A stretch of 64,000 nucleotides of DNA. Source: Polytrichum commune. Taxonomy: Eukaryota; Streptophyta; Polytrichopsida; Polytrichales; Polytrichaceae. How positions within the stretch are numbered: position 1 is the stretch's first letter; every line of letters begins with the position of its first letter. This document shows, piece by piece, positions 2,087 to 52,880 of the stretch. A program made the position numbers and the translations under genes. The notes under the pieces are model-generated. The model did no database searches, was not told the origin of the DNA, and saw only the letters and a list, made by a program, of their open reading frames with translations. Location of the stretch: contig OX485806.1 in assembly GCA_950295325.1 (NCBI GenBank), forward strand, positions 6,448,001-6,512,000, in the 5' to 3' direction.

Positions 2087-2710
2087 TGTATTTTAGGCAA
2101 ACAAAGTAAAGTTTATGTGGTGACGACTTGAAATTGATTACCCCATAAGAGATTTGACAAATGTTATAACCAAGGAGTAGCATTGAGATGGCGGTTATGG
2201 GTTGACCTATAAATGGACTATGTGCAACCCTAAAATAAATGTACGAAATTTATAGCAATTTTCATATGCATGATTTTAAGAAGAAAACAATTGCATTCTC
2301 CTTAGAATTTGTTTCTCTTTGTAAGAAAAAAAAAATTAATCCCCCGCTATTACTCCTCCTAAATAAACATATGCAAACTCTCTTATTTTATTGGTTATAG
2401 ATGCCTCAGCCGTAATGCTTGGAAACAAACACTCAACCCATGACATCACTGAGATGCTGCCAGGTCATGAAAGTAGAAAGCCAACTTATGGGTGCCACGC
2501 GGTCATGGGCTCATCACGGCCATACGCCCTTCAAACCCCCCCCCCCCCCCCGCTCCCGGCATGCACGGCTCCTCCTGACTCTCAACACAACGCTATCCAC
2601 ATTGCCCTTCGTACCAGCTTCGTCTCTACCGGCCGCGCGATCAGGGAGATCGACGGCCAGAGATCGCTTTAGGGGATAAACGCCATAGCCACAGAGGGGG
2701 GAGGACGCCA
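2087..2710. other. Intergenic spacer upstream of thioredoxin m
   Basis: AT-rich DNA grading into a GC-rich proximal part from about 2,500. A run of 16 C occupies 2,536-2,551. The proximal region probably includes distal promoter sequence of the thioredoxin gene. No TATA box was identified with confidence. Confidence 0.4.
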
Positions 2711-2928
2711 TAGCCAAGGGGAGGGGAGGCTTGTATTCCGTTGCTCTCCCCGCGATCCCCCGGTCGCCGTTTTTGCCATAGACAGGTCGACCCACTGATT
2801 TGTGCCCTTGCCGAATTCCAATCGAGTTGTGGGTTTTGCCAATTCGAGTAAAGAATAGGGAGGGAGCGGGAGGCGGGAGAGAAAGAAAGAGAGATACAGG
2901 TACAAGGATTGAAGGTTTTGGGGTAGCG
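2711..2928 (+). promoter_or_regulatory. Proximal promoter / 5' leader of thioredoxin m (duplicated cassette)
   Basis: GC-rich, GA-rich segment directly before the thioredoxin start codon. It is nearly identical to 10,301-10,518 and clearly similar to the TOC75 leader (about 23,090-23,300 and 23,500-23,545). Shared blocks include CGATCC, GGTCGCCGTTTT, GTCGACCCA, a GAGAGAAAGAAAGA-type tract, GATACA and GAAGGTTTTGGGGTAGCGATG at the start codon. The transcription start cannot be placed from sequence. The purine tract just before the ATG suggests most of this is 5' UTR. Confidence 0.6.
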
Positions 2929-4959
2929 ATGGCAATGGTGGTGGATGCAGGCGTGGCGGGGGCGATGGCCGCCCCTAGCAGGCAGATTGCAGCTGTCGCC
3001 ACGGCTTCTTCGTCCAGCTCGCCGTGTGTCGTGGGCATGGGCATGCGCTCGTTGCCCGTTTGCCGTGGCCTCAGGAGGTTGAACTCGGGCGTGAAAGTTT
3101 CGTCGCGCGTCGCCGTGCGCTCTATGTCGTCGTCATCGTCATCCCGGGGCAACATCGTCTCCGAAGCCCAAGAAACCGTCACCGGAGGTATCATCTTGAT
3201 TCTTCACCCCTTGTCCTGAACCTACATCTCTCTTATATGAGGTTCTTTTGTGGTGCATTGTGACGCCATAGGAGTACCACGTCGTACCCTTGTTTCGAGT
3301 GTTGACAATCTTTGGAGATCCGGAAATCTCTGTTTCTGCGCACATTGTGCTCCTTCCCTTGTTTTCGGTTGTTGGATTTTTTGGAATACGAAATATAATT
3401 TTTTGGGGAATGTATGAATGTCTGGAGAGGTTATGTTCAGACGGGTTTTGGGTTCAATTGACGTTGTTTAGCATTAAATGGTTGGGTCTTGACATACCTG
3501 AGCATGTGGATTATGTGACTGTTGTTAGGTTCCCGAAGCTCCATGTGGTTGTTTGCCCACATTAATGTCAGTGCCCTTCCAACCTGGGTTCACCCTGTCA
3601 AATCATATACCAGGTTCAACGTGTAGTTGAAAGAACAAACTTGAGTTGGAGTTCTCACAGTGAAATTCGATGATATATGAGCTGTTTGTGATGAATGTAT
3701 GACCTAAGCATGTTATCAGAGGATGCTTCTTCTTCCTTCAAAGTGTACTGTGCGTTATACTCAGTACATTCTAAGAGGACAAGTTTTTTATCGTTTGAAC
3801 ACATGCCACCTCTTTAGTAAGTGTAAGTAGAACTGATCAATGTACATTTTGAGCAAGTTTGTATTCACACCAGCCAGTGCCAGTCACTTAGAATATTGGG
3901 AGTGGAAATGTGGAATTGGGGTTTCGTCAGCCGATTGATAGATTACCCTAGGTTTTTTAATCGATTCACACAAATCGTCATGTTTGTTATTTCTCTTGTT
4001 GTGCTGAGGGACTTGGTTGAGTTTTTAGTTAGATGAGAAGAAGCAACTCCTTGACTCCTGTATTGGGTATCTCGATTCCCTTTCTATGCTTCGGTCACAA
4101 GGATATCTCAGATTGCAATTTCCGTGTGCTGTTTTGTTTGAAAAGTGTGTAGTCAAGTAGTTTCTGACCATACTCATTAGAAGTTGGAAGACAAGATAAC
4201 CTCTTCAGAACAGTAAGCTACATGAATATGAATTACCTTCACACTGAAACTTTCACTTTAGCTGCAAATTCAGGAATTGAGGATGTGCATACTTCACCCT
4301 TTTGAGGTAGGTTGTGAAAGGATCAACTTTGTTAATTCTTTTCTGGTCTTTGAATTTGTGAGGGTTGGTCAAATTCATCCGATAACTCTGTAGCTAGCTG
4401 AAGTATCATAGAAGCGCATATGCAACCTTTCCCAGTGTTATATGACCTTATAGGCCATAGTTCCAGCCCCACACGTAGTGTTGAGCCTCTGCATGGAATA
4501 TTACTTTTCTAATGCGGTTCCATGTTTTTGTTAGATTATAAACCAGTTACTTGTTTAAATTATTGATCTCACATGCACTTAGTTGGAAGAGAATCAAGCA
4601 TGATTTGTTCTGACATTATGTTTTGTGTGCCTGCAGTAGCAGGTGTTGTAGATGAATCTTCATGGGCAAATCTTGTCCTAGAGAGTGACATCCCTGTCCT
4701 GGTAGACTTCTGGGCCCCTTGGTGCGGACCCTGCCGGATGATTGCACCCCTTATTGATGAGCTTGCAAAGCAGTATGCTGGCAAGGTTAGGTGTTTAAAA
4801 CTTAACACAGACGAGAGTGCTGGGATTGCCACGGAATATGGCATCCGTAGTATCCCAACTGTTATGATCTTCAAAGGTGGAGACAAAAAAGATACTGTCA
4901 TTGGTGCAGTGCCCAAGTCTACATTGACAACAACTCTTGAGAAGTACTTGGATTGGTGA
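2929..4959 (+). CDS. Thioredoxin m-type, chloroplast precursor
   Basis: Stromal disulfide reductase of the ferredoxin-thioredoxin system, which regulates photosynthetic enzymes by reducing target cystines. Two exons: 2,929-3,187 (transit peptide, 86 codons plus one base, phase 1) and 4,637-4,959. The product is about 193 residues, usual for an m-type precursor. Exon 1 has few acidic residues, is rich in Ser, Ala and Arg, and ends with the SEAQET-TG type motif seen at the mature N terminus of m-type thioredoxins. Exon 2 encodes the thioredoxin fold with [10 protein letters not shown] (cysteines near residues 116 and 119), the conserved KLNTDES and the cis-proline block IRSIPT. The acceptor is tandem (AG at 4,636 or 4,642); both are in frame and differ by two residues. 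The start chosen is the first ATG and matches the start of the TOC75 homologue of this exon. Exon 1 is shared with TOC75. Family assignment is firm; the exact isoform number is not. Confidence 0.93.
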
Positions 4960-10298: not shown

Positions 10299-10919
10299 GT
10301 ATAGCCAAGGGGAGGGGAGGCTTGTATTCCGTTGCTCTCCCCACGATCCCCCGGTCGCCGTTTTTGCCATAGACAAGTCGACCCACTGATTCTGCCCTTG
10401 CCGAATTCCAATCGAATTGTGGGTTTTGCCAATTCGAGTAAAGAATAGGGAGGGAGCGAGAGGCGGGAGAGAAAGAAAGAAAGATACAGACACAGGGATG
10501 GAAGGTTTTGGGGTAGCGATGGCGATGGTGGTGGATGCAGGCGTGGCGGGGGCGATGGCCGCCCCGAGCAGGCAGATTGCAGCTGTCGCCCATTGAACGG
10601 GGAGAACCGGCTGCTACTTTCAGATGAACCGGTTGAGTTTGAGAAATAACTGGTTGAAGTTCAAGACTTCAGGAAATTAACCGGTCACTTTAGAGGAATC
10701 TATAGAATATACCCCAATTTAATGAAGAACAATCGAAAGATGTCAATATGTAACCGGTTGGATTTGGAAACACTCGGACCTCAACCGGATATGCACAAAT
10801 CTTTCCCCGAACACTGTTGTCGCCACGGCTTCTTCGTCTAGCTCGCCGTGCGTCGTGGGCATGCGCTCGTTGCCCGTCTGCCGTGGCCTCAGGAGGTTGA
10901 ACTCGGGCGTGAAAGTTTC
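10299..10919 (+). pseudogene. Truncated duplicate of thioredoxin m leader and transit-peptide exon
   Basis: Nearly identical copy of 2,711-3,101, from the AAGGGGAGGGGAGGC block in the leader through the GTGAAAGTTTC block in exon 1. The copied start codon is at 10,519. The frame runs 24 codons like the thioredoxin transit peptide, then meets a TGA at 10,594 inside an inserted MITE (10,591-10,816). A 6-bp deletion also distinguishes it from the source. The copy stops mid-exon at 10,919, so the SEAQET motif, splice donor and thioredoxin domain are missing. It cannot encode a thioredoxin, but its promoter and leader are intact and point towards the NYN-LOTUS gene, so it may act as a promoter or short upstream reading frame. 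Confidence 0.85.
10591..10816 (+). mobile_element. hAT-like MITE (family H), copy 1, 226 bp
   Basis: Inserted in the duplicated thioredoxin exon. Ends read CATTGAACGGGGA and, on the other strand, CAGTGTTCGGGGA, giving 13-bp imperfect terminal inverted repeats of the hAT type (CA-N-TG start). It is flanked by 8-bp target duplications with one mismatch (10,583-10,590 CTGTCGCC; 10,817-10,824 TTGTCGCC). The unoccupied target is seen in the parent gene at 3,000/3,001. The body is rich in AACCGGTT-type motifs and has no coding capacity. Related copies are at 22,345 and 52,654. Confidence 0.9.
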
Positions 10920-11652
10920 TTTAAGGTATTGAGTCATGAAAGGCATAGTTGTAATGGACGCAGTGATCACAGTTGCAGTAAAGAATATGGACAAGGAAAA
11001 AAGCCGAGGTCGGTCAGTCGCACAAGGGCTTCCAGGAGGAGTGAGCGGTTATTTATATAATTTTTTCTTGTGTTAATGCAGAAACATGGTAGGGGCAACT
11101 GCTGTCCCACTTGGTGATCGTGACTTCAATTGCATATAGCAGGCAATTCACAATGGAAGGTTACATTGTGGGAGTACAGAGATTTATTTTAGTGTTGATT
11201 TACTTGCAACTTGATAGAGGGAAGGAGCATAATTGACATCGTTGAATGACTTCATATCTAATCCAAGAAGAGGAGGCCAATATCCAGAGGAATTGAAATT
11301 CTGAGGAGTTTGATAGAATTGGTGATGATCAGTTACACACTACAAAAACGAGCTTAGTTCTTCAGCTGGAAGGTGTATGTCGAGGACATAATCGTTTGCG
11401 TTGATGGAATGGTTCTTGGTGAAGTGCTAGAAGAAGAAAAGTGCTCTGCCTTTTGAAGAACGAGGAATCGCTACTTGTCCAAGTCGAAGAAGTGTGGGCG
11501 ATCCCAGACTAGTGAGCAAGGGATGAGTGGGAGCCATAGCCATGGCGCCAATTCTAGTTCAAGGACGGCTAAGATCATATTGTCCCACTAGCCTCGTACC
11601 TATTCTACCGCATCATATTTTCTTTGCTTGCAGCAACCTTAGTTCCTCTCTA
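10920..11652 (+). other. 5' region of the NYN-LOTUS gene
   Basis: Probably untranslated leader or upstream non-coding exon(s). A convincing splice acceptor (pyrimidine tract ending TTTGCTTGCAG) lies at about 11,633, just before the chosen start codon at 11,653. Another acceptor-like site ends near 11,088. An in-frame ATG at 11,542 lies before the acceptor and would only be used if that intron is not removed. Confidence 0.45.
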
Positions 11653-14600
11653 ATGGATGGTCAGGTTCCTGTTGATCTTGAATTTAACGTACACAACAAG
11701 GAGACAAGTTCAACTATCTCATGGAAGCGCTTGAAGTCATGTCGAGCCTCAACTCTTCCACATCGTCCGTTCGGTGAATCACATCGTTCGAGACAAGATG
11801 GGGTAGGAAGAGGTGCAATTAAACCTGAGTTAAATCCCCTTAAGCAATCTAAGCTCACACCGGCATCACTGGAGTCTACTCTTCCATCTCCACTAGTTCG
11901 ATCGACAACCCTAGAACAAACCTCTGTATGCAACATATTATCACCCCCTTCACATATTCCACCAGATTTGTTTCTTCCGCATCCATTAGACCTACAACTA
12001 AGCGATAGCGATGACGAAGAAATTGTGAGAAGGTCGGCATTTTCTTTGACTCTTGTTGTATGTGCTGCCGTGCAATTAGTCCATGTCACTAGTGCTCTTA
12101 GCCTCTGGGTGAGTCGGTTACGACTGAGGTACTTCGATTCTCCATTCACATACAGAGAAGTTTCAATGCGTTCGCGACTGGGCATGGTGGGCATATTCTG
12201 GGACATTGAGAATTGCCCAATACCCGGAAACATTGATGCGCAGATGGTGGTGAAGCAAATGCACAAGATAGGAACTTCTTTTGGCAGTATTCAATGTCTT
12301 CGCGCGTATGGCAAGCTCGAGTACCTCACACGGCAGGTTAGACAATCACAAATTCAATAGAGCTTAAGTCCTCTGTTTTGCTTCTTTCTTTGTCATATGA
12401 GGGCTATATTGGCTTCTGTTGGGAGTTTGCGCTCTGGTTGGAATCAGTGACGGAACCACATTTACTATCATTGTAGTTTGTTGTTACATAATTTGGGGAT
12501 TTATGCTCTGGATTTTGGAATACCAACATTTTTTACTTGTTAGTATATCTTAAGCATCCAGAGCTTTCAACTGGCCATGTCAAGTTGGACAAATATTTGA
12601 ATAGAACTTAAGCTTTCAGAAATTTGTCATTGAACAATAAAAACACTATGACTTTCAGGGAAAGAGATGTGATATTCAATAGGTTGTTGTTAATAAATGA
12701 ATTCTGGTTTCTAAAATTGAGCTTCTGGTGCTTTCTTTCAGGCACCTATTCTGCTCAGCATGGGAGTGGAGTTGTGTCCAGTGCCCGATGGTAAAGAATC
12801 CGCTGACAAAGCCATAATTATGGATGCTCTGCTGTTTGCATTTGATCACAAGCCATGTCCAGACACACCTCCGGTGGACAAGGTTGCTTCACAAGGTAGT
12901 CAAGGTAAACTTCGTGCAACTTTGCTTCATCAAACCGGGTACTGGCCTTGTTGATATCATAATCCTCCAGAGTACAATGAGCGCAGTAGGCATGCATCCA
13001 AGGGTGAGGTTCAAAGGAAAGGATGAAGTATCACATATACAATATACAATAGAGGCCCTTCATCTCGTCAATACTGGCAATCAAAGTGGCAATGTTAGTA
13101 TGTTTTACACTTAAAGTCTGGATCAACAAGAATCTCTAGTTCATCTCTAGTGGGTGTTTTCCTCATAATGGAATAGGCTTAGAGTTGGCAGATGATAAAG
13201 TATTTGGGAAAGACTTTTGAATGTGATTACTGTAATTTTGATGTGGTAAGGCCTACTCAGCTAGATACCTAAATTGTGCAATGGGGTTAAGTTAGGGCAT
13301 TTAGGTAGTTTATGAACACACTCCTGTTATTCTTCATAAATGCAGAGAAGAAGAGTGATATCTGATGTTGTTCCTAGTTGTCTCTGTGCAGCAGGTGATG
13401 GGATCGTGCTTGTAACAGGGGACAGAGGATTTTCTGCTTTACTAAGGGAACTTAGCAACAGACAGATGACCACAGTAGTAATTGGAAATGGCCATCAAAA
13501 AATTCCCTCCATTTTGGCACAAGCAGCGGATTTTAGTATCCAGTGGGATGAAATGATGGAGACATCAGATTTTAACACCAAATGCAATGAAAAATGTAAA
13601 TTGTCAGAGGATCAACATTTAGAGATTGGAAGATGGGAAGCATCAAGCTCATGCAACGTTCTGCTGAAGTATGAGTCACAAGGTATTGTGCAAGTGGCTC
13701 GGAGTCCATTCTGAATTGGGCCTGCCATAGGTCTGAGAATACTAGTTCTCTTAGCCAGAATGCATGCCTCTCTTTTGACAATAGCCTCGTTGGTAACTCA
13801 TGGGGCAGATAATAGTCTATGTTTGCTGTCAAAAGGGAAGGGACTCTTAAGGTGAAAATGGATTATTTGTCTGAAGCTTTAATCGTGATACCTGCCTATT
13901 GAATTAGGAAATGTGTAGAGAAATGATCAACATCACACAAGAAAATAGTTGCACAGTCCAGTGGTTATTGCCTGCAAGCGCCGCACATAACACGTATTGT
14001 ATGCAGATGGGAAACCTAATACAACCGTTTTCTGTTGTTTGTCTGCAGAAATGGCGGAGGAAGAAGTCTATCCAGATTGTGATGATTCTCTCCTCGAAGA
14101 AGGTGATACTCGGGATGAAGATATAGTGGAAACACAATCTGAGTTGGAATTTTCAGATGCCAGGCAAACTGAGGTTTGTGTTCATTTTGTCAATAACCTT
14201 TTTATTGTTTTCCTCTCTTGAACTCTGTACGTACAAGACTTGAATTAAACTCAATATTGCGATCATGTTTTTCCAAGGATGTTACTGTGACCATGTTGTC
14301 ACTGTTAGAGCCCCCTCTCGTTTGCATCTTCAAAAGGTAAAGACAGAAATAGTATTTTTAAGTTCCTGAAGGCATTTTTATATTTTGGTTCAGTGTCAAT
14401 GTAATATTCAATATTCTGATCCGATGTTCATGTGGCTTAACGCAGAAAGGCCAAAACTTCAACTTGTTAAATATGACTACTTTGGAGGGGAGTGATGGCT
14501 TGAGTGCAAGGTCTCATTTAATTCATGACAACACTTTCTCAGGGAATGGGCTCCCTTTATTTGACAATCAGAATTGGGACTCAGTGCCTCACGTCTATGG

Positions 14601-15431
14601 AACTAAGTATTTGTTGGATCCAGCAATCAGTGTGCAAAGATCTCTTTGCCCAACTTTTTATCCTGTTAGCAAGAGGAAAAATGAGAGGCAACATCAGATT
14701 GGGCTTAGTTTTAAGACTGATGAGTGGGGGATATTGAAGAAATCAGCTCCGGTTGGTGGAAGGGTTAGGATTTTAAGACACCTTCGTTGTGAGGTAGCTT
14801 ATGTTATTGAGAAACATTGCAAAGGAAAACCAAAGGCAGCTCTAGAGTTTGAGCAGTTTGAGTTGCTCTATGAACTAGAGATGGGACATGCTTTGGTCAG
14901 TTCCCATTACGGATTTGCTAGTCTGAAGAGCTTGCTAAAATCAATGCCAGACATAGTAGCGCTACGCTCAATCTCTCCGGTCACGGCAGATTGGAGAATA
15001 TATCCACATGTCAAGGTGAGTACACCATCTAAACCACTGTCTATTTTTGCATTGAGGATAGAAATCATCTTCATTTTACTGATCTTCAATATCCTGCTGA
15101 CTTCCTCCCTATTGGCAAATGACAGAGAAATGGTGAGGGCCGCAAAAGTCGAACAAACTTCAGCAGACATGATCTTCGGTGCATTTTGTATAAAATTCTT
15201 CATTCGGCATGGCCACTTGGAATTCCCAAAGAGCACTTGAGCTCAGAGCATTGCAAGCTGACCGGGCGGCCATTGGTACTTGTCGCCTATGAATATTGGA
15301 AACTAGGCGATTTGATTCAAAGCATGGGAGACATGCTTTACATTGATGTAAAGAACAAGCATGTATGCTTAATAGATGGTGCACCAGAACCTCAAGGATT
15401 ACATGGAAGGGAAAACAATGGGTGGAACTAA
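11653..15431 (+). CDS. NYN (PIN-like ribonuclease) and OST-HTH/LOTUS domain protein, MARF1-like
   Basis: Predicted RNA-binding endoribonuclease. Coding exons: 11,653-12,336; 12,742-12,895 (or 12,904); 13,392-13,682; 14,049-14,173; 14,446-15,015; 15,126-15,431, giving about 709 residues. Residues 1-125 are low-complexity and polar, ending in an acidic SDSDDEE patch. A hydrophobic stretch at about 126-155 could be a membrane segment. The NYN domain starts near 178 with GIFWDIENCPIP, continues with ADKAIIMDALLFA and, in exon 3, with VLVTGDRGFSALL; the aspartates of these three motifs fit the NYN metal site. Exon 5 encodes one LOTUS-like helical domain and exon 6 a second, weaker one that ends shortly before the stop. 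Plant homologues are annotated as putative endonucleases; some are organellar. The exon 3 acceptor is tandem (CAGCAG). The first exon and the exact end of exon 2 are the least certain parts. Confidence 0.78.
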
Positions 15432-15793
15432 ACTTCAAGTAAGGTTCTTCTTCAACTTTAGTCCAAATCTCCAGCTGCAATTGTACATACATGTTTCAAA
15501 TGTTTTGAAGCATGACCAGGAGATCAATGTGATTCTATTATTCTATTTTATTTATAACATCTTTGGAATCAGTTCATGCCCATGTTTTTATGATTAATAT
15601 CCTTCAGATGTAAAGTTTCTTGTTCGACATCTCTGTAACCTACATCTTTCCTCCTTGCCCAACTCTTTGTGTGATGGTTTCTTTTCTCTTGGCTTGCTTG
15701 CTTGCATCTAAAATCAAGACGAAGACAAGATTAGGGTCAAAAATTCTCACCTATGGGATGGAGAGGACGACGCAAACGCTCTGCAAAGACAAA
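15432..15793. other. 3' flank between NYN-LOTUS gene and U6 gene
   Basis: AT-rich DNA between the convergent NYN-LOTUS and U6 genes, presumably holding the 3' UTR of the former. A run of seven A at 15,791-15,797 is the U6 terminator read on the other strand. Confidence 0.5.
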
Positions 15794-15843
15794 AAAATTT
15801 GGACCATTTCTCGATTTGTGCGTGTCATCCTTGCGCAGGGGCC

Positions 15844-15875
<32 letters not shown>

Positions 15876-15895
15876 TCAGATGTCTCCGAAGAGAC
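15794..15895 (-). ncRNA. U6 spliceosomal snRNA gene (variant 5' stem)
   Basis: The minus strand reads as a complete plant U6 snRNA of about 102 nt: 5' stem-loop, the invariant ACAGAGAAGATTAGCATGG region including the ACAGAGA box that pairs with the 5' splice site, then CCTGCGCAAGGATGACACGC and a U-rich 3' end followed by a T7 run, a typical Pol III terminator. The 5' stem is GUCUC-UUCG-GAGAC in place of the usual GUCCC-UUCG-GGGAC, a paired change that keeps the hairpin. Upstream (15,896-15,970) I see neither the plant USE (TCCCACATCG) nor a TATA box at the usual spacing. It is therefore either an unusually driven gene or a dispersed copy, although the RNA region itself looks intact. Confidence 0.9.
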
Positions 15896-19290: not shown

Positions 19291-22094
19291 AAACATACAT
19301 AAAAATATAATTATGAAAAAAATTTCTTTGGTTTTTTTTTGTAGTCAACCTTTTGTCTAGTTTTGGAACCATTGCTTGCATTACATTCGGTTTGCACCAA
19401 AAAAATGGAGGAGGTCACCCAAGCTACCTATGAATCTTGGGATGAGCTTTGGCAAGTCATCAATAATTTTTATAAGTTATTCTTATCCACTGAGTCAACC
19501 TGGAGTCAACCTTGAGTCAACCTTGAGTCACCCTCGTGTTTGTCAATATTCAAAGCAGAGTAAGACATTTCATTAGGCTAATTGCTCTTTGTTCACACAT
19601 TATTGAACAAAATGGGTATTCTTTTTGCCAAGATATCATGGGTATAGGATACTAGTGGGTGTATTTCCATACATATCTACCTTCCTCATTGGTCATATGT
19701 TATCGCTCATCATTCATATGATAGCATTCCCCATTCTAAAACCCTCCCAATAAGTTTGGGTTTGGGCTCATTAATTTTCCAATGCATTCCCAAAATGTCT
19801 TGCAATTCCATAGCTATATGATCCAAGTGCCCCTATATCCATGTTGTCTATTTCACTCGCCACTCATTGCTCACCGCTCCCCAAGGTTGTATACGTGGCA
19901 CTCCAACACAAAGTGTGCCTTGTTTTCGACTGCCTTGTAAGAGCAAAAGTGGTATAATATAATATCTCGAAAGATAGGGATAGTCGACAACCATCTAGTT
20001 TCAATTGCAAGCCTTTGGTTTATGGTGTGGTAAGCAGTGATGAGGCTTTGGAGACAAGAAAAATGAAACTTTATCATTGATAACGTCATGTTTAGACTTC
20101 TCTTAGAAAACAACCCTTATCAAAGTAGTTTTGTTTTCCTCATGAGCTTCTCTTATTGGAGGCATGAGTTGAAATTAGGGTACAAATACAACCAACATGT
20201 GAAGGGATAAAATGTACAATTCTTTGCAAAAAAAAACCAGTGCATGTTTAGCCATTATTTTTATACGTGATTGTATCTTTCCTACCTTTCAAACCTATCC
20301 TTTACATAATTTACCCTTGGGACACAACTTGGACACAAATTCATCATGAAATACCTTTTGTTGATGATTTTTTGCAATCAAAATCTCATGCGACATTCCT
20401 AGCATTTCAAGATGTAAATGGTAGATTTCACGCACATGTATGTGATCTATGAATGACTCGTGGCAACTTAGGGTGTTTTTAGAAAGAAAGAAAACACTTG
20501 CCAACTATCATAGACTTTTAGTGCTCATTTGTTGTTAACATGTCCAAGAGAATATGGCCACTTCAAACTTTCATACCTTGGATTACTTATGATCTCCTCG
20601 TGCTTCAAAGTGGTACTCCCCATCATAAGGAGATTCCTAGTTCACTGCATTTACTTGGATAGAATGTGACATTTGTCCATACACATGCTAATATTAACAA
20701 TTTGTCGAATTTATTCATTTAAATTTTTTAATGAACATTTGGCAAAGAAAAATGTTGTAATTTTTTTTCTTTAACATTAAATAAACATTTGAAATTTCTA
20801 TTTACCGAGATTTCGCCAAATTAATCTACATTGCTATAGACTCCTTGGGTCTAAAATTATGTTGTTGACCAACCAGGGGTCCCAATTGGGGGAGAGGGGG
20901 GGGGTAAAGTGGCGGCATTGGAAGTGAAGGGGGTTTAATACATGTATGTATGTTAAAAAAAACTACCATGGGTTGTTGGTGTCACTTAACCATGATGTGA
21001 GTCACAAGAAGGAAACAACACAAGTCTGCAAGTGAACTTGAACCAACACATGCATAGTTGTTTGTAGTGAATAAGGAGACAACTCCCAAAGTAGAGAAAG
21101 AAAAGAAAAAATGGAACATATGTGTCTTTACATTAACATGCGATGTCCATTTACCACCCCTTGGCCATGTCTGTGCGAGCATGGGGGGAGGTGGCTTGAT
21201 GCTTACTAACTTCCAAACTAGGTCACTTGCTACAACACCCCGTATGCTTGAGAGTGGAATGTGACCTTCAATTAGGTTAGTCACTTCGATTCTTGAGAAA
21301 GTGAAGGTGCTTGTGTATGAGAGCAACCTTCTTTGAGAGGACTTCTCCTTTGCACTTGTGCAATCATTGCATTAACTATAATATTTGGTTCTATTTGTCT
21401 TGCTCAATACTAATATTAATTTGCATGTGTAGTGTCACCAACACTAAATGTAGATTTAACATTGTTGTTTCTTGTAAAAAAAATTGGGCATTATAGATTT
21501 GTTGTTTTGCATTTACTGACACTTACCGTGTGATTTTTCATCCAATCCATGACAATATTTCATTGCAAAAATGTTAGGATGTAGAATACACCAAACTTTG
21601 TTTAATGGTTGGCATGTGGATGAACTAAAAGTAAGTTGGGATGACAATACTTGGAAACTTTTTTCACATTAAGTGGCATTAGAAAAGTTACTACATTGAC
21701 ATAAAATACCCTATAACACTAAATACAAATTTTCATGTAGTTTGCACTTAAGCCATGTGGATGGGGAGTACTTCACATTTGTCATGATATGGATCCCTTG
21801 CATTTTAAAGATATTTTTATTGATTATTTTCCTTTGGTAAGAACATTTTAGGCATGGAAGAGGGGTACTATGTAGGGCTAATGAACTACTTGAATTGGGA
21901 GGTTTTGGTTATGGATTCATCCTAACTTGGTTAGTCTAGGTCCAAGAAACTAGGGTCCAAAATACCCTTTCTTGGACCTTAGCTTTGGACTCAAGATTGG
22001 ACCCAATCTTGAAGTTTGGTTTCTCAAATTGGACAGAGGATTTCTCAAGCCAAGACCACCAAGAAGTGGCAGGAAATAATGGTACGACTTTCAT
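19291..22094. other. Intergenic DNA, no gene seen
   Basis: AT-rich. A short direct triplication of GAGTCAACCT-like motifs lies near 19,490-19,530 and an AAGATTGG/CCAATCTT palindrome near 21,993. No recognised protein domain or RNA. Confidence 0.5.
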
Positions 22095-22699
22095 GGTATG
22101 CAAGTGTTATTCAATTGCTCTTGTTAATCAAATACCTACATCTAATTGGTGTGGGGTTAAGTGATGATCGAAGAACAAACACCACAAAGACACATGCTTA
22201 GAAAAGGTTGGACTAAATTTTAAAATTCTATTAACTACTCCACACTCAATAATGAACACAATTGGGAGGATTTATCAGCCATGGAATCAAAAAATGTGCC
22301 CTTTTGATAACCATAACTAAGTAAGGGCAAGTCCAATTTCCATTTAGTGATGGGGGAGGTTTATGGGCATAATTAGTTGAGATCATGGTGTTTGCAAGTC
22401 CAACCGGTTACTGTGGACATCCTCCAATCTTCCTTTATTAAATTGGGGTATATTCTATAAATTCCTCTAGAATGGTCGGTAATTCTCATGCAGTCTTGAA
22501 CTTCAACCGGTTATTTCCCAATCTCAACCGGTTCATTTGCAACTAACTGCCGGTTCTCCCCATTCATAGTTTCCAATATGATTTTTTGACGATGTTTCAT
22601 CATAGATTTGCTAATAATGCAACACGAAATATGAAAGATGTATATGCAATCCATAGAAGTTGGAGAACAAGAAAAACGTATCGAGTTTAGTGCCACTCC
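22095..22699 (+). mobile_element. Copy 2 of the ~375-bp long-TIR element (P1), split by a MITE
   Basis: It starts GGTATGCAAGTGTTATTCAA and shares the GAAGAACAAACACC block and the GATTTGCTAAT block with the other P1 copies. Removing the MITE at 22,345-22,569 and one target copy leaves about 372 bp, matching the 376-bp copy at 48,377. Confidence 0.75.
22345..22569 (-). mobile_element. hAT-like MITE (family H), copy 2, 225 bp
   Basis: Same family as 10,591-10,816, inverted. It carries CCAACCGGTTAC, TTGGGGTATATTCTATA, CTTGAACTTCAACC and GCCGGTTCTCCCCATTCAT. It starts TAGTGATGGGGGA. Flanking 8-bp duplications are TTTCCATT (22,337-22,344) and TTTCCAAT (22,570-22,577), one mismatch. It is inserted inside a P1 element. 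Confidence 0.9.
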
Positions 22700-23545
22700 A
22701 TTTTTTCCACACTACCGGTACGGGCTCGACCCCTAGTGTACATAAATACGTTGGGTCCAGAAATGTTGCTTGGGACCAATTGGATTGCTCGACTGCAGAG
22801 TTTATGTTTCCCCTCCTAGTCTTGGACCCTAGTGTACACGTGTCATCCCCACAGAAGTTTAGAATGGGGTTTTAGGATAGAGTGCAGGGCCATCATCGTA
22901 TTCCATTCCTACAGCATTCATTACACGGTGGAACGCTCCAGCCCCAGTGCCCTAAACCCAGCACTAAACCCATCCATGTCACTAGTCACCGTCCGATCCC
23001 CCAGATCGACGGCCACGGGCCGCCCCGGGAGATAGAGTCCACAGCCATAGCCAAGCGAGACGGACAGAAGACGGAGGACGAGCCTTGCCTCGCCTTCCCT
23101 TCCCTCCATCGGTTCCCGCGATCCTCTGGTCGCCGTTTTCCGTCCCAACCACGTCGACCCATCCATTGATTCTACCCTCATCACTCTGAGAATTCCAACA
23201 GCGTTGTGCCTTTTTTCCAATTCGTGTACAGAGTAGGCAGGGAAAGGGGAAGGGAAAGAAGGAGAGAGAGGGGAGAAAGATACACACAGGGGGAGACCTG
23301 CGCACATGATACGCTTCGCCAAGACGTTCGCCGCTGTGGTTCCCACCACCTGGACGGCGTAGCGAAGGCGAACATACGGCGGTGGTGGTGAAGAGCAAAT
23401 TTTGGTTTGTAGGCCTCGCCATTTTCGCCAGGTCCACCAGTTCCGGACTCCGCGGTGAGAGGCGAAAGTGAAGGTGTACGCCTTCATGTGCGAGGCCTAA
23501 GAGACACAGACACAGACGTAGGGATTGAGGGTTTTGGGGTTAGCT
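22700..23545 (+). promoter_or_regulatory. Upstream region and 5' leader of TOC75
   Basis: From about 23,000 the DNA is GC- and purine-rich and resembles the thioredoxin leader: CGCGATCC, GGTCGCCGTTTTCC, GTCGACCCAT, GAATTCCAA, CAATTCGTGTA, then a GAGAGAGGGGAGAAAGATACA tract, and GGATTGAGGGTTTTGGGG before the start codon. An insertion of about 200 bp (roughly 23,291-23,500) separates these blocks relative to thioredoxin. It is GC-rich and contains inverted TAGGCCTCG (23,410) and CGAGGCCTA (23,491). No confident TATA box. Confidence 0.6.
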
Positions 23546-26500
23546 ATGGCGATGGTGGTGGATGCGGGCATGGCGGGGGCTATGGCGTCTCCTTCTGCGT
23601 GCAGGCAGTTGGCCGCGGTCTCCACCGCTTCGTCCAGCTCGCCTCGTACGGTGGGCATGGGTGCTCGCCTGAACCCTGTCTGCCACGGCCTTCGAAGGGG
23701 AACCTCCATAGCCAAAGCATCATCAAACTTCCCCATTCGCTCTGCTTCGTCATCCCGGGGCAACGTAGTCTGCGAAGCCCAAGAATGTGTCACCGGAGGT
23801 AATCTTCTTTTATCCCAGGGGGTTGGGTTACTACCTACTTACCGCTATTTTTTTGGGTGTGCGGTGGTCTGCCCACATTGACTTGCAATTTGGCACTAAG
23901 CTACCGAATTTATGCAGCTGAAATGATCAAACCTGAGTAGGATTTTGTATATTGAGCTTCAATGTATGCGGTAAATGTGCGACATATACAATGTCATTCC
24001 ATGGAACACTCTTTTCTCCTTTCTCTTTTCTCTCCTTTGGTTTTTGAGAGGACAGGATTGTGAGGGTTTGGATATTTGGATATTGCCTTATCTCTGTGTA
24101 GTAGTATTCTAAACCCTCGCAGTCCCGCTGCCATTGTAGAATTCCTTAGCATAGATTTGAGGAAGTTTATGTGGGTGACTTGGACTATCTCAGGGGTGGA
24201 GTTTTACACTCTAATTGATGGATTATCCTATGTTGTATATTCTCTTTTCTCATTTCTCTCTTTTGCTCTTCTGAGAAGACAGGATTGTGAGGGTCTGGAT
24301 ACTGTCTTATCTCTGTGTCTAGAACCCTAAACCCTGAGAATCCTGTTGTCATTATAGAACTCCTTAGCTTAGATTTGAGGAAGCTCATGTTGGTGGCTTG
24401 GACTATCTTAAGGGTGGAGTTCTACCCTCTAATTGACGGATTATCCTGTATTGTATGTTCCAAAACCCTAGGTACTTGGGGATGTATTACCTTAGACAGA
24501 CTGTTGTCGTGTCGAAATCTTTGGCTTCTAATAGATGATGATGATGAGGGGATTTGTTGATGGTTTTCTATAATGCTGGTGTGAATTGTGTATGCAGCTG
24601 AAGATTTTCAAGAACAGCCCAAGGAGGCCAACTTTGGTATAAGCTGGAGACAAGCTGCTTTAGTGGCAGCTGGTGTAGGGGCTGCACTTAGCAGTAGTGT
24701 GTTCTTGGTGGTACTCACTGGTGGGGATGGAGGTGGTTTTGGTGGATTTGGTGGAGGTGGAGGTGGCGGTGGAGGTAGTGGTGGTGGTAGTTGGAGGTTT
24801 TGGCTCGACAATGGAATGGCTTGGGCAGATGCAAAGAACGAAGAGGAAGGAGCGGATGCCTCAGATCCCCATGGCCTACAGGTTGGCCGCAATATACCTG
24901 TTAGTAAGCTCAACCCTGCAAAGCGATACCGTGTTTCGGGAGTCGAGCTTGTTGACAAGCGCACAAAACAGGCTATTGACTCGAAAGACCCATTCTACGA
25001 ACTCGTGACGCTTCGGACAGGTGGTGTGGCAATGAAAGCGCAGCTGGATGCAGAGGTTGAGAACTTGATGAACTGTGGCATGTTTCAAACCGTTGAGATG
25101 GATGGGGTGACCCAGCTCGATGGAAGCTTGAAGATGCAGATTTCGTTCATAGAAAGCCAGTGGCAGCCTGCGGATTCGTTCAGGTGTGTGAATGTAGGTT
25201 TGTTGGCTCAGAGCAGGGCCCCAGAACTTGATGAGAAGTTTACAGATCAACAGCGAGAAGAACTCGCCAAGGCCCAGGAAGAGGAGTACAAGAACAGGCT
25301 GAGAAGGGCTCGACCTTGCATGCTCCCCAAGAGTGTTGAGGTGAGAATTATTAGTGAAATATTTCCACTGTAACTCCAGTCTGAGCTCACAAGTTTTTGT
25401 TATTTTGCTTGGGTGACAATAAACTCCCTGTTTGTGGGATCTGCTTTGCTGTTCAAGTACAACACAATGTTGTAGCCTAAGGTAGATGGTGTTAAACTAT
25501 CACTTCAAGCGCTGAGTACAGATACTACTGTCTGTTAAATTTTATTTTAGCAATTGATAGGGGATTTGCAAGACATGAAAGAATCTCTTATTTGAATGCT
25601 ATGTGCAAAAGTCATATAGGTTCAGAGTTTTATCAGTAGATGACCCAAAACCAACATGGGGTCTGATTTCAAGGTGATGGACATTCTTAGAATCAATATG
25701 TGCTCAGTGTGCAAGATTTTAGGGCGTTGGTTCCAGCATGCTGCAGATTCTTGCAACAACATCAAGATTATTGTTGTTTCTCCAGGCCAGGGATGTTAGT
25801 TCTCTTTAGCATTCTACTTTTTAGGCAGGATTCTGTTTGTTGACCTAATGCCCATGTTTGTTGTTTATGATAGCGAGAGATTTCAGGATGGTTGCGGGGT
25901 GAGACACGAGTTACTGCCCGCATGCTGCAGCGAATCAGAGACCGAGTTCAAAAATGGTACCATGAGGAAGGCTATGCATGTGCACAAGTGGTCAACTTTG
26001 GAAACTTGAACACTAATGAAGTCGTGTGTGAAGTGGTGGAGGGTGATATCACAAAAGTGCAGATTCAGTTTCAGGATAAGATGGGTTTCCCATCTGAGGG
26101 TCACACCCAGGAGGTTATTATCCAACGGGAGCTGCCTGATCAAGTAAGTACATCATATTTTTTTCCTATGAGAGGATGACAGGCTTTTCTCATCGTGTTA
26201 TAGGCATTGTTTCCTGCACACATATTGGTAGAAGAGGAATCATGTGGAGGGTCATCAAAGTATGTTGTTCAACCACTAGTAATGAGTGGAAAGCTGGTAT
26301 GTGGTACCAATTGTTGTGAATCTGAGGCTCATGGGATCACTTGGGATGATTGAAGTCTTCTGTTCAGAATTGTTGTCTTCCTACAAATGTCTGATAACTT
26401 ATGAGTTCTGTGCAGTTGAGAGCAGGTCAAATTTTCAACATTGAAGCTGGCAAGAAGGCATTGAGGAATGTGAACGGTTTAGCATTATTTTCCAACATAG

Positions 26501-29500
26501 AGGTCAACCCCAGGCCAGACGAGGAGAATGATGGTGGTATAGTGGTAGAAGTGAAGCTAAAGGAGCTGGAACAGAAGACAGCTGAGGTCAGCACTGAATG
26601 GAGTATTGTGCCTGGAGCCGGAGGACGTCCTAGCCTGGTAAAGACTACCCCATTTGTTAGTCTCATTATTACAGTACTTAGACTATGGTGCGAGTTTGAG
26701 TACTACTATATTAGGTTATTGCAACTTTTTATTTCCATGCACTATGAAAACTTAATGTTTATTTTGTGTAGTGACATAATACCTTGTGTTCGGAAGGTCA
26801 TAAACATAGGAATGAACTGCCAAATTAAAAGGTCACAAGGTCTACTTGGTGAGGTTTTGTAATGTGGTAGTATATTTATACGTGAATTTTTGAAGTTACA
26901 GTGTCTTTTTGTAGTCTAGGTTGTGTGCGTGCACGGCTATATTGATATATGTTCTGAAAATACTTTTGTTAATATTTGTCTGCAGTCCACGATACAGCCT
27001 GCTGGAAGTGTTACATTTGAGCATCGGAATCTACAAGGGCTGAACCGCTCTATACTTGGCTGTGTCACTTCTAATAATCTTCTCAATCCTCAGGTACACC
27101 TTTAAAAGATCTGGATTCTCATGTGAGGCTTTGTTAACTCATTTCCTTTCATCATACATTGGCCTTACTAGCCTGCAAACTTTCCCTGTTCTACAAACAT
27201 TGAGGTGAAATACTGGGACTGTAAAAGGATATTCACCAGAGACTAGTTTGTGTTAGCAACAGAATAATGCTTCAATATGGCACATGAGCCTACAAATTGG
27301 CAAAAGATTTGAGGTTCTCAATCATTTTATAATTATTTATAACCTGTAGTTTATGGGTGTTGCAGGATGATCTTGGATTTAAGGCAGAGTATGTCCATCC
27401 CTATGTTGATGGAGTTGATGATCCTCGTAATCGTACATTCCGCGCAAGTTGCTTCAACAGCCGGAAACTGAGTGCTGTTTTTACAGGTGGCCCAGGTCTA
27501 GAGGAGGTCCCTTCTGTGTGGGTAGATCGTGCTGGATTTAAGGCTAATTTGACCGAGGTCAGTTTAATTTTCAGTTGCAATCAATCTATGTTCACTTCCA
27601 TTTTTAAATTACAAAAACTTGTATGATAAAAACGAGTATCTGGCTACCTGGGTTTGGTACAATGTTAAGATTGATCTCTATTATCTGTACAATGGAGAAA
27701 TGCTAAATTGTGTTTCTCTCTTCTGTGGACAGAGTTTCACTCGGCAGAGTAAGTTCACTTATGGTTTGGTATTGGAGGAGGTAACAACACGAGATGAAAC
27801 CAGTGCCATTTGCACAAATGGTACACGCACTTTACCAAGTGGTGCGCTCACCATGGATGGTCCCCCAACCACACATAGTGATACAGGCATTGATCGTGTT
27901 GCATTTTTGCAAGCTAATCTAACACACGACAACACACATTTTGTCAACGGTACACCCATCGGAGAAAGGCATATTTTCCAGGTCTGTCATACTCTCCTGT
28001 TGATTGTTTGACGAGTTAGTGGTAATGCTAGATCTTGATGCTGGACTTACTGAGGGCCACTTTACAGTATGGCCAAGGGCTATGACCATGAAATTGTGAG
28101 GGGCCCATGATACTCACGAAAAGGGTGTATCATGGAAAATTGAAATTGAAATTTGTATGGTCCTGGGTTCAGATCTAGATTATAAGTAACATCCTCCATT
28201 CTTAATTCCGATTATGCTCTTTACAGGTGGATCAAGGTCTTGGTGTAGGCAGCAAGCTGCCCTTCTTTAACCGACATCAAGTAACCCTAACACGATTTAT
28301 TCAACTGCAACCTGAAGACAAAGTAGAGATTGAGAAGCCTCCTCTAGTTGGAGTTGTCCATGCAAGATATGGAGGTTGTGTAGGAGATTTGGCTAGCTAT
28401 GACGCTTTTACATTGGGCGGCCCTTATTCTGTACGTGGTTACAACATGGGTGAGCTTGGTGCAGCTCGAAACTTCCTGGAGGTAACATCCTTACCTCTTT
28501 GTTGTCTTGCATCTTGTGAGATTATCTCTTTGGGTGTGTTCTGAGGATGTGCCTACAGACAACTACCACGGTGGTTGACTTGGGGTTTGGGCCCACCTTC
28601 AACCACAACTAAGATACATATTTTTCATTTACACACAACCATACTTGTAGTTGAAGAGCGGATTTTACCTCAATGATCATTTGTGGAGAGTAGACAAACT
28701 ATTTATGGATTCTAGTGGGAAGTTTGTCCAAGAGTAATTGCCTCCTACAAATCCTTTCCCATGCTTTGGCCTTGAAGTTCTCTCCGGTGCCACATAGTTA
28801 CTACAACAGATTAGAACCAAAGACATTAAACTAGCACCATTGCAACTAGTCCCAACTACACCTTGTATCAAAGTTGGCCAAGGTATTGTAGTTGTGGTTG
28901 TCATTAATGCACCTTATCCCTCATTACTTGAAAATAGAGCCAAAAAAAGTACAGCCTAACCTCCATAATGTCTTCCTCTGTAATGTCACTCTCTCTCTTA
29001 CAACTTGAAACTCTAGGGAATGGATGTGCTCGGTTTAAATCTCCCTCCTTGTTGTAACATTTCCCTCTCATATATCCTTAGTTTTGACATCAAAATAATC
29101 CACCAAAGAATTCAAACCACACGCTCGCATGCATCACGTTGTCATCATTGTCATTAAGGGCCCTAACATTGACTGGCATCCTCTGCCTTAATATTGACTT
29201 TGTGTTATTCCACAATGTCACATGCTACACTAATTCTCTATTATCACACATCCATGTTAACACTGCAGACCTCCTTAATATCATGCGCAGTTCGGTTGCC
29301 ACAGGCGTGGTATTAGGGAGGTCAGAGTAACTACGACCATTGACCACTGACATTGTGGTTGTGCGTTAATGCACCTTGAGAATCTTGTTTTGGACCTTTG
29401 CCTTATATTTTTCCCTAATGCTTGTAAACTAACTTTTTTGTAATACATTCTGCAGCTTGCTCTTGAATTGCGAGTGCCGGTGAAGACAACACACACATAT

Positions 29501-29695
29501 GGTTTTCTCGAGTATGGTACCGATCTTGGTAGCTCAAAGGATGTGCGAGGCAACCCGACAGAATTTTTCCGGCGCTCTGGGAAGGGAGCCTCATATGGTT
29601 TGGGTGTGAAACTAGGTTCAGTTAGGGCAGAGTATGCCAGGGATTGTAATGCTGGCACAGGTTCCATTTTTGTCCGATTCGGCGAGCGGTTTTAG
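23546..29695 (+). CDS. TOC75: TOC75, outer-envelope protein-import channel (Omp85 family)
   Basis: Beta-barrel channel of the TOC complex that passes nuclear-encoded preproteins across the outer plastid envelope. Nine exons: 23,546-23,798; 24,598-25,340; 25,874-26,143; 26,416-26,637; 26,986-27,093; 27,366-27,557; 27,733-27,981; 28,227-28,481; 29,456-29,695, giving about 843 residues versus about 820 in Arabidopsis TOC75-III. Exon 1 is a transit peptide homologous to that of thioredoxin m, ending in VVCEAQECVTG at a phase-1 junction. Exon 2 carries a hydrophobic segment and a Gly-rich run (the envelope stop/retention signal), then the start of the POTRA region. POTRA repeats continue through exons 3-4 (RIRDRVQKWYH, EVVEGDITKV, FNIEAGKKAL). 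The 16-stranded barrel occupies exons 5-9, with VRGYNMGELG in the conserved L6 loop region and a C-terminal FVRFGERF strand. All internal junctions after exon 1 are phase 0. No break was found. The start matches the thioredoxin paralogous exon. Confidence 0.95.
24019..24460 (+). repeat. Tandem duplication of ~222 bp in TOC75 intron 1
   Basis: Two adjacent units (about 24,019-24,240 and 24,241-24,460) share ACAGGATTGTGAGGGT, AGATTTGAGGAAG, TTGGACTATCT and TTGATGGATTATCCT-type blocks. They lie wholly inside the intron and do not alter coding sequence. Confidence 0.8.
25500..25795 (+). repeat. Dispersed repeat in TOC75 intron 2
   Basis: Part of this intron, with blocks ATGACCCAAA, AAGGTGATG and ACATTCTT plus ATCAATATGTG, is also found at about 44,195-44,365, and its last part at about 61,480-61,540. 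Boundaries are unclear. Probably a decayed mobile element. Confidence 0.45.
28045..28135 (+). repeat. Fragment of P2 element in TOC75 intron 7
   Basis: Carries GGGCCACTTTACAGTATGGCC and AGGGCTATGACCATGAAATT, the terminal segment shared by the P2 elements at 43,200, 57,785 and 60,314. Only one end is present. Confidence 0.6.
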
Positions 29696-31887: not shown

Positions 31888-32453
31888 TTAATATCTCCAT
31901 TTTTCACACAAAGTAGAATCTCTGGTGCTCCCCACAACCCCAACCCAACATTCATAGTCACCTACATAGACCGAAAATTCCGGGTTTGCCAGATCTAATT
32001 CACATTGTTCTAGTATGTGAGTCATTGGAGAGACCAACGCATTAGAGGCTTTCAGATCTCTATGGACAATGTTGTACTTGTGCAAGCCCTCCATCCCCTT
32101 GGCAATCTGATTAATGATAGTCATGCCAGCCATTTCATCACTGAAAGGTGGGCGGTTGTTGCAATTGAGTTTCATCCGGAGGTCTATGAGCTTCCACAAA
32201 AGGCCCCAGGATCTGTCCATTAGGACGGCAAACCTATGGTGGCCTGTGTTTCTTCCCTCCACACTTGCTAGGAGCTGGACAACCCATTTGAATCTCTTGC
32301 TTTCTCCAGCTGTTGGGTGCACAATTCCTTGCAGTCCTTCTCTTCAAGCCTTAAATTCAACAAATGCGATGTGCGTCTCAAAACATGTGGACTCCTCTCC
32401 CAAACAATCACTACTACAAACTCACTTGATTCCTTAATCTGACCTTCTGTCAA
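31888..32453 (-). pseudogene. Protein kinase fragment, frameshifted and truncated
   Basis: The minus strand encodes a recognisable kinase piece: an upstream segment (32,268-32,453 frame) ending near RDSNGLSSS, then in another frame SVEGRNTGHHRFAVLMDR, and the catalytic-loop motif NIVHRDLKASNALV near 32,025. The change of frame near 32,300 breaks the protein. After the catalytic loop a VYVGDYEC block stands where the DFG region is expected and is followed by unrelated residues and a stop, with no APE motif or C-lobe. The N-lobe glycine loop and lysine are also missing. It looks like a decayed copy of a plant TKL-type kinase. Confidence 0.7.
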
Positions 32454-37756: not shown

Positions 37757-40478
37757 CTACGAGTAGACTGTGGAGTGCAAGACATCAACAGTTGTGTATA
37801 CCTTCTGTGGTACGTCTTCATCTGCGTCTCCTTTTGTGCTACCACCGCTATTGCTGCTTGCAACACTTGAAGACTTGCTAGACTCTTCTGCAGAAGCTCG
37901 CATGGCTTTCTGTACAAGGAGCTGTCTCATGATGGCACCCTCCTCGAGTTCCGGATTGTGGTGCCAGAAGTTCCCCAGGAACGTCTTCGCGCCATCTAGG
38001 CTTGGAAAGTAGGGTGGTTCGAAGTAGATTTGAGAAAGGGCATCCGCAGCAGAGATTTCGGCTTGCGTTGTGCCCTTGTACTCCCCGCTACCCATTACAG
38101 CAATCACAAGCTGCTGATAAGAGAAATAGAATTGCCTCACTGCTGCCTCAACTGCTTGGAAAGCTTGGAGAAGATGAATGGTGGATGAGTGATATGCTAA
38201 AGGTCGACCAAAGGGTGCCACTGCATGAGTTCGCATACCATGAGAATGCAGTAGATCCATCACTGCCTCTTGCAGTCTTGGGCCTCCCTTTGGATCAGCT
38301 TCTACTCCCACGACTTTAGGGACCAGATGCCGGAGCTCTTTGCAAGCCTTGGTGACTTCCCGGAGCTTTGTGGACCTTAAACAGTATGCACCTGCCCAGC
38401 ACAGTTACGAATTTCGTGTCAGAGCAAGAACATTCAAAACAGGTACCAGCTGCTTAACCTCCAAACTCTAGATGTTTTAGTCTTTCCAATTCCTAGCTTG
38501 ATCGCTTCTACTCATTAACTAGTCTAAAAGGTGTAAGATTAGGGTTGAGGATTGTCAGTGCTCATATGCTAGAAAACCCCTTGACATGCTCATCTAAGCT
38601 TTCGAATGAGACTATGTAGATCATTTCATTCAAAATGTGTGACATAAAAGCGGTAAATTAACGCCCTTACCTCCTCCAATGTGTTCTGTGCTAATAGCTG
38701 CACCATCCTGAGAAATGGCAAGCTCTTCTTTCAAACGCATGAAGTCATCAGGGTCCATGATCTGCAGGAGATCCATCGTGGAAATCAGTAATTTCCAAAC
38801 TCGCTCAACAATCCAGCAGCTCTTGGCTGCCCCCTCGGAGTTTCCAGCTTTAACATTCTCTTCCACGTTTTGGATGAGCCCATGAGCTACCTCCAGCCAT
38901 GCCTCCATGATTTGGTGCACAGTCGAAAGGGTATGATCCTCGGCATGCCCAGGCATGGACTGTCTGCATGCATATACCTGCAAAACTTAAGTTTGTGAGA
39001 AAATTCTCCAACATAGGTGGCAAAAAAAGTTCTTATTCTACAGATGTAGAACTTAATGTGCAATGCATGTAGGCTTCCACTATTTTCTAACGGTTTGAAG
39101 TTGGAAGAGCCAATTTCTTACACTGACACCTAAAAGTTGCTATCGATAACCTAAGAAGATCCAGCAACACACTACGAATGTTGTAGGAAGAACGCACTCG
39201 TACTATAATGCTAACCGTACAGCAACACTTACACCTAAGAGCCAAGGCTTCCACTTCTGCTCACGAAAAAACTAGGAAGGCAATCAGAATGCAGCAGGCA
39301 TTCTTGCCCAATCTAGGGTGGAATTGAAGTTAAAATTACAATATATCAGGAAGCATCACACTCATACATTCGTAAGATCTACTCCACAGCTGACCTTTCG
39401 CAGTATAATCGTTCCAAGAGAGAACAAGATACATCCTTGCAGACAATAGTCCAAAAGATGTGAATATCAAATTCTCTGAACACTACCAAGTGGAAAGCTG
39501 CATACAGCTGATTACAAAATGGTCGAAGGTAATTAGGATGCCACGTCATCAGACCAGACCCAGTCCTGTTTCTACATTTTTTCAGAGAGATGTGACCTAA
39601 GTTAGACTACATGTTTCGTTGTAGGCCAGAACCTTGAACATAGCGTGTGCGGTATAGAAACTATAGCAGCTGGAGTATTACGCAAAAATTCACACCTGGG
39701 GCTCAATGAAGGAAATGGCAAAGTCACTCTAACCAAGAGACGAAGACAAGGCAGAAAAAGAATCGGTGAAGGGTTTACAAGAACAGCAGCATATTCTTAC
39801 CTCAAGAGGTTGACAGATCTTATCATACTCGAGAACAGCTTTTCCTGAGAGATTTGGCTCGCCAAGACCTAGAGTAAATGGTGCACGAGCCATGTGACCT
39901 TCAATAGCAAAATGCAACCTGGCACTGACGCTCTGAGCCGTTCTCCAGGCAGCCAGACGGGGCAGGAGGCTCTCTTTGCTCATCTTGCTTACAAAAGGTC
40001 GTGATCCCGACTTGTGCCATACCACTGACTCGGTTCCAACATAGCTAGCACTATTTGATAGCTTAGAAGTCGGCGCATGGCCATCTGCCTCCACTATGCA
40101 AGAAAGAATCTCAAGCTGCAGGTTGGCAAGTGATTCCAATCTTCGGAGCCACTCGTCACGATCGATGTAAGGTCTGGTGTCGCACAGGACGCCAGAAATC
40201 ATACGAAACACCATCTCTAAGCTGTGAAGGGCAGGCCTTACAATGGTTTCGTTTTTCCATGTTGGATAGAGCTCCGTCCGCCATAGCCGAGTTAGCTCCG
40301 GAAGATGAAGGTAAAGCCCGTACGCTTCAACTTGCTCCGGCGACGGTTGCACAAGAGCCTCAATGTCGCAGTTCGCCAGGGAGACCGACACTGGCGTTCC
40401 TGGAAAAAGAGCGCAGTGCACTCCTCCACACACTCTAGATCTTAGCTCCCGTGTATCCATGCCTGAGTGGAAGTCCAT
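37757..40478 (-). CDS. HSPRO / Hs1pro-1-like protein
   Basis: Plant-specific stress and defence protein; Arabidopsis HSPRO proteins are pathogen-responsive and bind the SnRK1 subunit AKIN-beta-gamma, and beet Hs1pro-1 was described in nematode resistance. Three exons on the minus strand: 40,478-39,801 (226 codons), 38,977-38,671 and 38,391-37,757, giving about 539 residues. Family blocks in order: YLHLPELTRLWRTELYPTW, ALHSLEMVFRMISGVL, RPYIDRDEWLRRLE, SLLPRLAAW, FTLGLGEPNLSGK, ERVWKLLISTMDLLQIMDP, GVEADPKGGPRLQEA, HLLQAFQAVEAAVR and YFPSLDGAKTFLG. Arabidopsis members are recalled as intronless and shorter; here there are two introns and a Ser/Gly-rich C-terminal tail of about 45 residues. A second ATG lies six codons after the chosen start. 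No break seen. Confidence 0.9.
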
Positions 40479-52653: not shown

Positions 52654-52880
52654 CAATGTTCGGGAAGGGATTTTGGTCATACTCGGTTGACATCTTATTC
52701 TTTCCAAGTCCAACCGGTTACATGGCGACATCGTTTGGTCTTTCTTTATTAATCAAGGTATATTCCTATGGATTCCTCCAAAGCAACCAATAATTATCCC
52801 AAAGCCTTGAACTTCATCTGGTTGTTTGTCAAACTCCACCGGTTTGTTGGTAATTAGCGGCCGGTTCTCCCCATTCATTG
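52654..52880 (-). mobile_element. hAT-like MITE (family H), copy 3, 227 bp
   Basis: Ends CAATGTTCGGGAA and, from the other strand, CAATGAATGGGGA. It shares AAGTCCAACCGGTTACAT, AAGGTATATTCCTA, CTTGAACTTCA and GGCCGGTTCTCCCCATTCAT with the other copies. The 8-bp flanks match only in part (5 of 8), so this insertion is older or the edge was altered. Confidence 0.85.

Follow-up and report, generated by a model that had tools for sequence, protein, structure and literature searches.

Transit-peptide exon shuffling is already known from nuclear genes for plastid proteins. In Malpighiales, the nuclear gene for plastid RPL32 uses the transit peptide of Cu-Zn SOD1 (PMC8018952). In chl-fus, which encodes chloroplast EF-G, a transit-peptide exon is set off by a phase-1 intron (PMC4522979). 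A third system of relevance is pea TOC75, whose bipartite targeting signal consists of n75 followed by c75 (PMC5147994, PMC4195282). Here, we analyzed a window (the whole 64-kb stretch of DNA) in which the gene for the import channel TOC75 and a thioredoxin m gene (TRX) carry a homologous first exon. All coordinates are those of the window, and features lie on the plus strand unless stated otherwise. We propose, with a probability of roughly 0.84, that the 5′ end of TOC75 is a duplicated TRX segment joined by exon shuffling.

This locus resembles RPL32/SOD1 in that a resident nuclear gene for a plastid protein apparently passed a copy of its transit-peptide part to another gene via duplication and exon shuffling. 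However, the recipient RPL32 had newly arrived from the plastid and needed its first signal, whereas TOC75 was presumably already nuclear and targeted (PMC8018952). Similarly, chl-fus has a phase-1 intron between the transit peptide and the mature protein, and intronic recombination was proposed for it; the donor is not named in the available part of that account, whereas for the TRX/TOC75 pair a stretch of about 21 kb includes the putative donor together with the exon, the flank, and probably a portion of the intron (PMC4522979). The pea TOC75 signal shows the same order as the one found here, an N-terminal stroma-targeting part followed by a hydrophobic/poly-Gly part, but pea n75 has 35 residues, whereas exon 1 in the window encodes 84 residues that appear to be thioredoxin m-derived (PMC5147994, PMC4195282).

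A half-swap of this kind, affecting the bipartite signal of a resident import channel, looks new. Among the titles and abstract openings listed from the open-licence literature, none reports this chimera, and no paper combining Toc75 with exon shuffling was among the matches; the term "exon shuffling" is absent from the available part of PMC12531127. If relatives confirm the proposed history, only the stroma-targeting half would have been exchanged in a resident, essential import channel, with the envelope half kept. If true, this would amount to a natural domain-swap experiment, in which the two signal halves are modular in evolution. Furthermore, about 21 kb contain the putative donor, the product, and a recent copy that failed, and close relatives should therefore allow the path to be traced.

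Homology of the TRX and TOC75 5′ parts

TRX exon 1 (2929..3187; 259 nt, 86 residues) encodes a transit peptide and, at its end, the residues EAQETVTG, and TOC75 exon 1 (23546..23798; 253 nt, 84 residues) encodes a thioredoxin m-type transit peptide ending in CEAQECVTG. Both exons start with MAMVVDAG and end with VTG, after which one base of a split codon precedes a phase-1 donor. The preliminary description had claimed identity at about 60 of 84 residues and a VTG end at a phase-1 donor in each exon. Its exon coordinates were correct, a global protein alignment of the 86 and 84 residues gave 59 identities, and phase 1 was found in both genes. The protein alignment score was 240, compared with a mean of 28.8 (sd 7.2) in 2000 residue shuffles, none of which came near this value (maximum 70; z 29). 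Similarly, the DNA alignment score of the exons was 212, which none of 300 shuffles reached (maximum 44). A search with TOC75 exon 1 alone retrieved no PDB match up to E 10.

Over 82 aligned codons, the two exons are 73% identical in DNA and 61% identical at third positions. Two methods gave dN of 0.23-0.26 and dS of 0.55-0.69 for these codons, that is, dN/dS of about 0.34-0.47. Together with the alignments, these values indicated that the exons are homologous and look constrained as protein, and the dN/dS fits purifying selection. At usual plant substitution rates, dS would date the exon transfer to a time long after land plants arose, although gene conversion could make the event look younger. 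Neither TRX exon 2 nor TOC75 exon 2 matched anything in the 64-kb window beyond its own locus at E below 0.2 (tblastn; best values 0.43 and 0.24, respectively), indicating that only the 5′ parts are common to the two genes. The comparisons thus support a homologous 5′ flank and exon that sit on two genes with unrelated mature proteins.

The likeness was also said to continue upstream through the 5′ leader, and it was indeed recovered there, in two blocks that none of 300 shuffles matched. The homologous TRX flank and leader occupy 2622..2928, and their TOC75 counterparts are a distal part at 22978..23270 and a proximal part at 23499..23545. In the near leader, TRX 2749-2928 aligned with two TOC75 stretches, 23115-23270 and 23499-23545 (score 143, shuffle maximum 33), and a weaker far block joined TRX 2622-2733 to TOC75 22978-23087 (score 50, shuffle maximum 34). 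Upstream of the far block, no signal of TRX/TOC75 likeness was obtained (103 of 300 shuffles reached the score, and 65 of 200 in a second test). Homology of the leaders thus stood, but not their continuity, because a 228-nt insert (23271..23498), visible as the gap between the homology blocks, splits the TOC75 leader. The insert is absent from both TRX and the third copy described below, and it contains two upstream ATGs (23306 and 23486), whereas the TRX leader contains none. With the leader interrupted in this way, a shared promoter that unites the expression of the two genes, as the preliminary description had supposed, is no more than a possibility. Inverted repeats of 10-14 nt occur within the insert. 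It was also considered as a structured RNA, and this candidate was rejected: for the folded segment 23265-23505, z was −1.37 and 19 of 200 shuffles folded equally well or better.

Downstream, likeness passes the donor. The introns 1 as a whole aligned colinearly with a score of 76, which none of 500 dinucleotide shuffles reached (maximum 65), and the homologous parts are 3544..4020 in TRX and 23860..24288 in TOC75. The best score among 284 other, overlapping pieces of the window, taken from both strands, was 59, and TOC75 intron 1 scored at most 55 against 196 other window pieces. On their own, the initial 300 nt of the introns showed no likeness (157 of 300 shuffles reached the score). TOC75 intron 1 itself contains a tandem duplication of ~225 nt (80%; 24014-24242 and 24240-24460), and the intron score fell to 62 when one copy of this repeat was left out, a form of the comparison without a shuffle control. 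We consider, on moderate evidence, that part of intron 1 probably came along with exon 1, and such homology is what recombination inside a phase-1 intron predicts. The junction thus probably lies inside the intron and not at the exon edge. As a separate and weak lead, 21598-21836 slightly resembles TRX intron positions 4130-4352 (score 59; 1 of 500 shuffles did as well).

Mismatches in ungapped columns amounted to 34/176 in the near leader, 35/108 in the far block, and 120/393 in the aligned intron. Conservation is higher in the near leader than at synonymous sites, a hint of constraint, although local alignment lowers distances of this kind.

The third copy and the proposed route of transfer

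The two-copy picture of TRX and TOC75 held for these two, but it had missed a further copy. This third copy (10301..10590 plus 10818..10919) corresponds to TRX 2710-3101, that is, to the 5′ flank and part of exon 1. Once the insert is removed, 370 of 400 columns are identical to TRX; 15 columns are mismatched and another 15 are gaps, of which the repeat beside the insert accounts for eight. Its reading frame stops after 25 residues, at the insert. The insert is a hAT-like MITE (10591..10816) with 13-nt terminal inverted repeats (77% complementary), flanked by the 8-nt near-repeats CTGTCGCC and TTGTCGCC (7 of 8 identical), and we take its class to be hAT-type. Relatives from the same AACCGGTT-rich hAT-like family were found on the minus strand at 22376-22566 and 52654-52880, the former ~0.4 kb before the TOC75 homology begins. 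Flanks of the third copy showed no clear extension of likeness to TRX or TOC75: the upstream flank scored 35 against TRX (reached by 6 of 300 shuffles), and the downstream flank scores were reached by 222 of 300 shuffles for TRX and 21 of 300 for TOC75.

The identity of the third copy to TRX indicates that the 5′ segment of TRX is copied locally, as judged from the alignments. The third copy ends within exon 1 without an intron boundary, and it therefore did not arise by intron recombination. Being recent, truncated, and MITE-broken, it points to segmental duplication nearby, with a deletion later fusing the parts; a single cassette jump need not be assumed. The preliminary description had proposed that an exon-plus-promoter cassette moved from TRX to TOC75; of this, the homologous flank and exon and TRX as the likelier donor were retained, whereas the junction probably lies inside intron 1 and the move need not have been a single jump.

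The proposed history would run as follows. A TRX segment made up of exon 1, ~300 nt of the flank on its 5′ side, and probably also a portion of intron 1 would have been duplicated in direct orientation beside TOC75. The phase-1 intron 1 of this TRX copy would then have recombined with sequence lying 5′ of TOC75 exon 2, creating the new TOC75 5′ end, and TOC75 would presumably be transcribed from the TRX-derived 5′ region. Within this explanation, the likeliest path seems to be a local duplication and then a deletion that fused the parts, and we give it about an even chance. Pea TOC75 anatomy, in the part of the account available (PMC5147994), leads us to infer that an older first exon of TOC75 was replaced.

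Alternatively, a transposable element may have carried the segment by capture of the Pack-MULE or Helitron type, giving the same end result without tandem duplication and deletion. MITEs of one family do lie at 22376-22566, 10591-10816, and 52654-52880, and the third copy shows that pieces of the segment move. However, the MITE of the third copy was inserted after the duplication, and on incidental inspection the copied unit was not seen to be framed by inverted repeats or target duplications. Furthermore, TRX, the third copy, and the TOC75 copy all lie in the same orientation within about 21 kb. We consider capture by an element rather unlikely.

The third copy lies upstream of a gene at 11527-15240 with NYN domain matches, according to a domain scan of 7 open frames taken from 53. 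The two halves of the NYN domain lie at 11647-12360 and 13340-13714, and an OST-HTH/LOTUS match at 14362-15240 falls just under the curated cut-off. A speculative extension of the proposed history, to which we give only limited weight, is that the TRX 5′ end has been a serial donor of a promoter and transit-peptide module in this lineage; one copy would have been fixed on TOC75, linking channel supply with a stromal redox gene, and a younger copy would have come to lie upstream of the NYN/LOTUS gene before the MITE broke it.

The TOC75 reading frame and bipartite signal

The TOC75 gene model, which like that of TRX is complete, comprises nine exons encoding 843 residues with one stop, and all eight introns have GT donors and AG acceptors. 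Intron 1 is in phase 1, and introns 2-8 are all in phase 0. Exon 2 (24598..25340) encodes, in order, a hydrophobic segment (residues 104-124), a poly-Gly stretch (126-145), a candidate AWA cleavage site (159-161), and the start of the POTRA region, and exons 3-9 with their introns extend over 25874..29695. Residues 166-474 matched TOC75-3 POTRA chains (E 7.5e-118), and residues 331-843 matched a 798-residue Toc75 chain (E 1.3e-100). The earlier view that the envelope half stayed in exon 2 agrees with the hydrophobic segment and poly-Gly found there.

According to the proposed history, the precursor would enter the chloroplast via the thioredoxin m transit peptide, which would take the n75 role and be removed in the stroma. 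About eight residues corresponding to the start of mature thioredoxin m would follow the transit peptide, and the hydrophobic/poly-Gly half encoded by exon 2, in the c75 role, would hold TOC75 at the envelope. In Chlamydomonas, residues past the cleavage site help import, according to the available part of PMC9133816. Since extra residues aid import there, a cassette that includes such residues may have been a working unit.

The real TOC75 transcript could instead use another first exon, which would make 23546-23798 a non-functional copy, and the insert with two ATGs that interrupts the leader can be read in this way. However, exon 1 of TOC75 has an open frame, a GT donor, and an exact phase match to exon 2, and its dN/dS of about 0.34-0.47 also speaks against a non-functional copy. 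We regard this alternative as very unlikely.

Probable direction of transfer and neighboring features

TRX exon 2 (4637..4959) encodes the WCGPC domain with the stop. Three in-frame tandem acceptors lie at this exon (4634-4643); the further ones would start it at 4640 or 4643, so that VTG is followed by VAGVV, AGVV, or GVV. The TRX protein contains WCGPC and matched solved M-type thioredoxins in the PDB (E 1.7e-49). TRX exon 1 closes with eight full codons for EAQETVTG, and these aligned, with 6 of 8 residues identical, to EAQETTTD, which begins a solved Trx m2 chain (E 0.0023 with a 42-residue query); a one-residue gap came soon after. Furthermore, TVTG aligned with TATG of a Trx m1 chain (E 0.005). 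We take these solved chains to be from Arabidopsis. The EAQETVTG residues probably belong to mature thioredoxin m, as judged from a comparison that covers only the last eight residues (four for Trx m1) and in which the start of a PDB construct need not be the natural mature start. TOC75 carries these mature-start residues as CEAQECVTG. The match of the exon 1 end to the Trx m2 chain start makes thioredoxin m the favored donor, and transfer from TRX to TOC75 is thus the favored direction. A complete second thioredoxin m gene was not found in the window, where TRX exon 2 matched only its own locus in tblastn (next best E 0.43), and TRX exon 2 with its 3′ flank gave no signal against 21830-22990 (334 of 500 shuffles reached the score).

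In the reverse direction, the exon would first have belonged to TOC75 and then been copied to thioredoxin m. CEAQ is the form of seed-plant thioredoxin m, and the TOC75 copy has CEAQ where the TRX copy has SEAQ, which gives no obvious ground for calling the TOC75 copy derived. Against this stand the alignment of the exon end with the starts of solved chains of Trx m2 and, for four residues, of Trx m1, the phase of intron 1, which differs from the rest of TOC75, and the third copy, which is nearest to TRX. We give the reverse direction very little credence. An origin of both exons from a third plastid gene seems just as improbable, given that the comparison with the solved Trx m2 chain assigns the C-terminus of exon 1 to thioredoxin m. 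Finally, two low-complexity transit peptides could resemble each other by chance or convergence; Ser, Ala, and Arg abound in the TOC75 exon 1 peptide, and the TRX peptide has a similar look. However, the probability of this reading was judged practically nil, and it was rejected, with same-composition shuffles scoring at most 70 against 240 and the non-coding flanks aligning too.

The window also contains a U6 spliceosomal RNA gene or copy (15793-15895, minus strand; 113.4 bits), and the domain scan showed two further features on the minus strand, a protein kinase fragment (31888-32343) and an Hs1pro-1-like gene with at least two exons (37757-40496).
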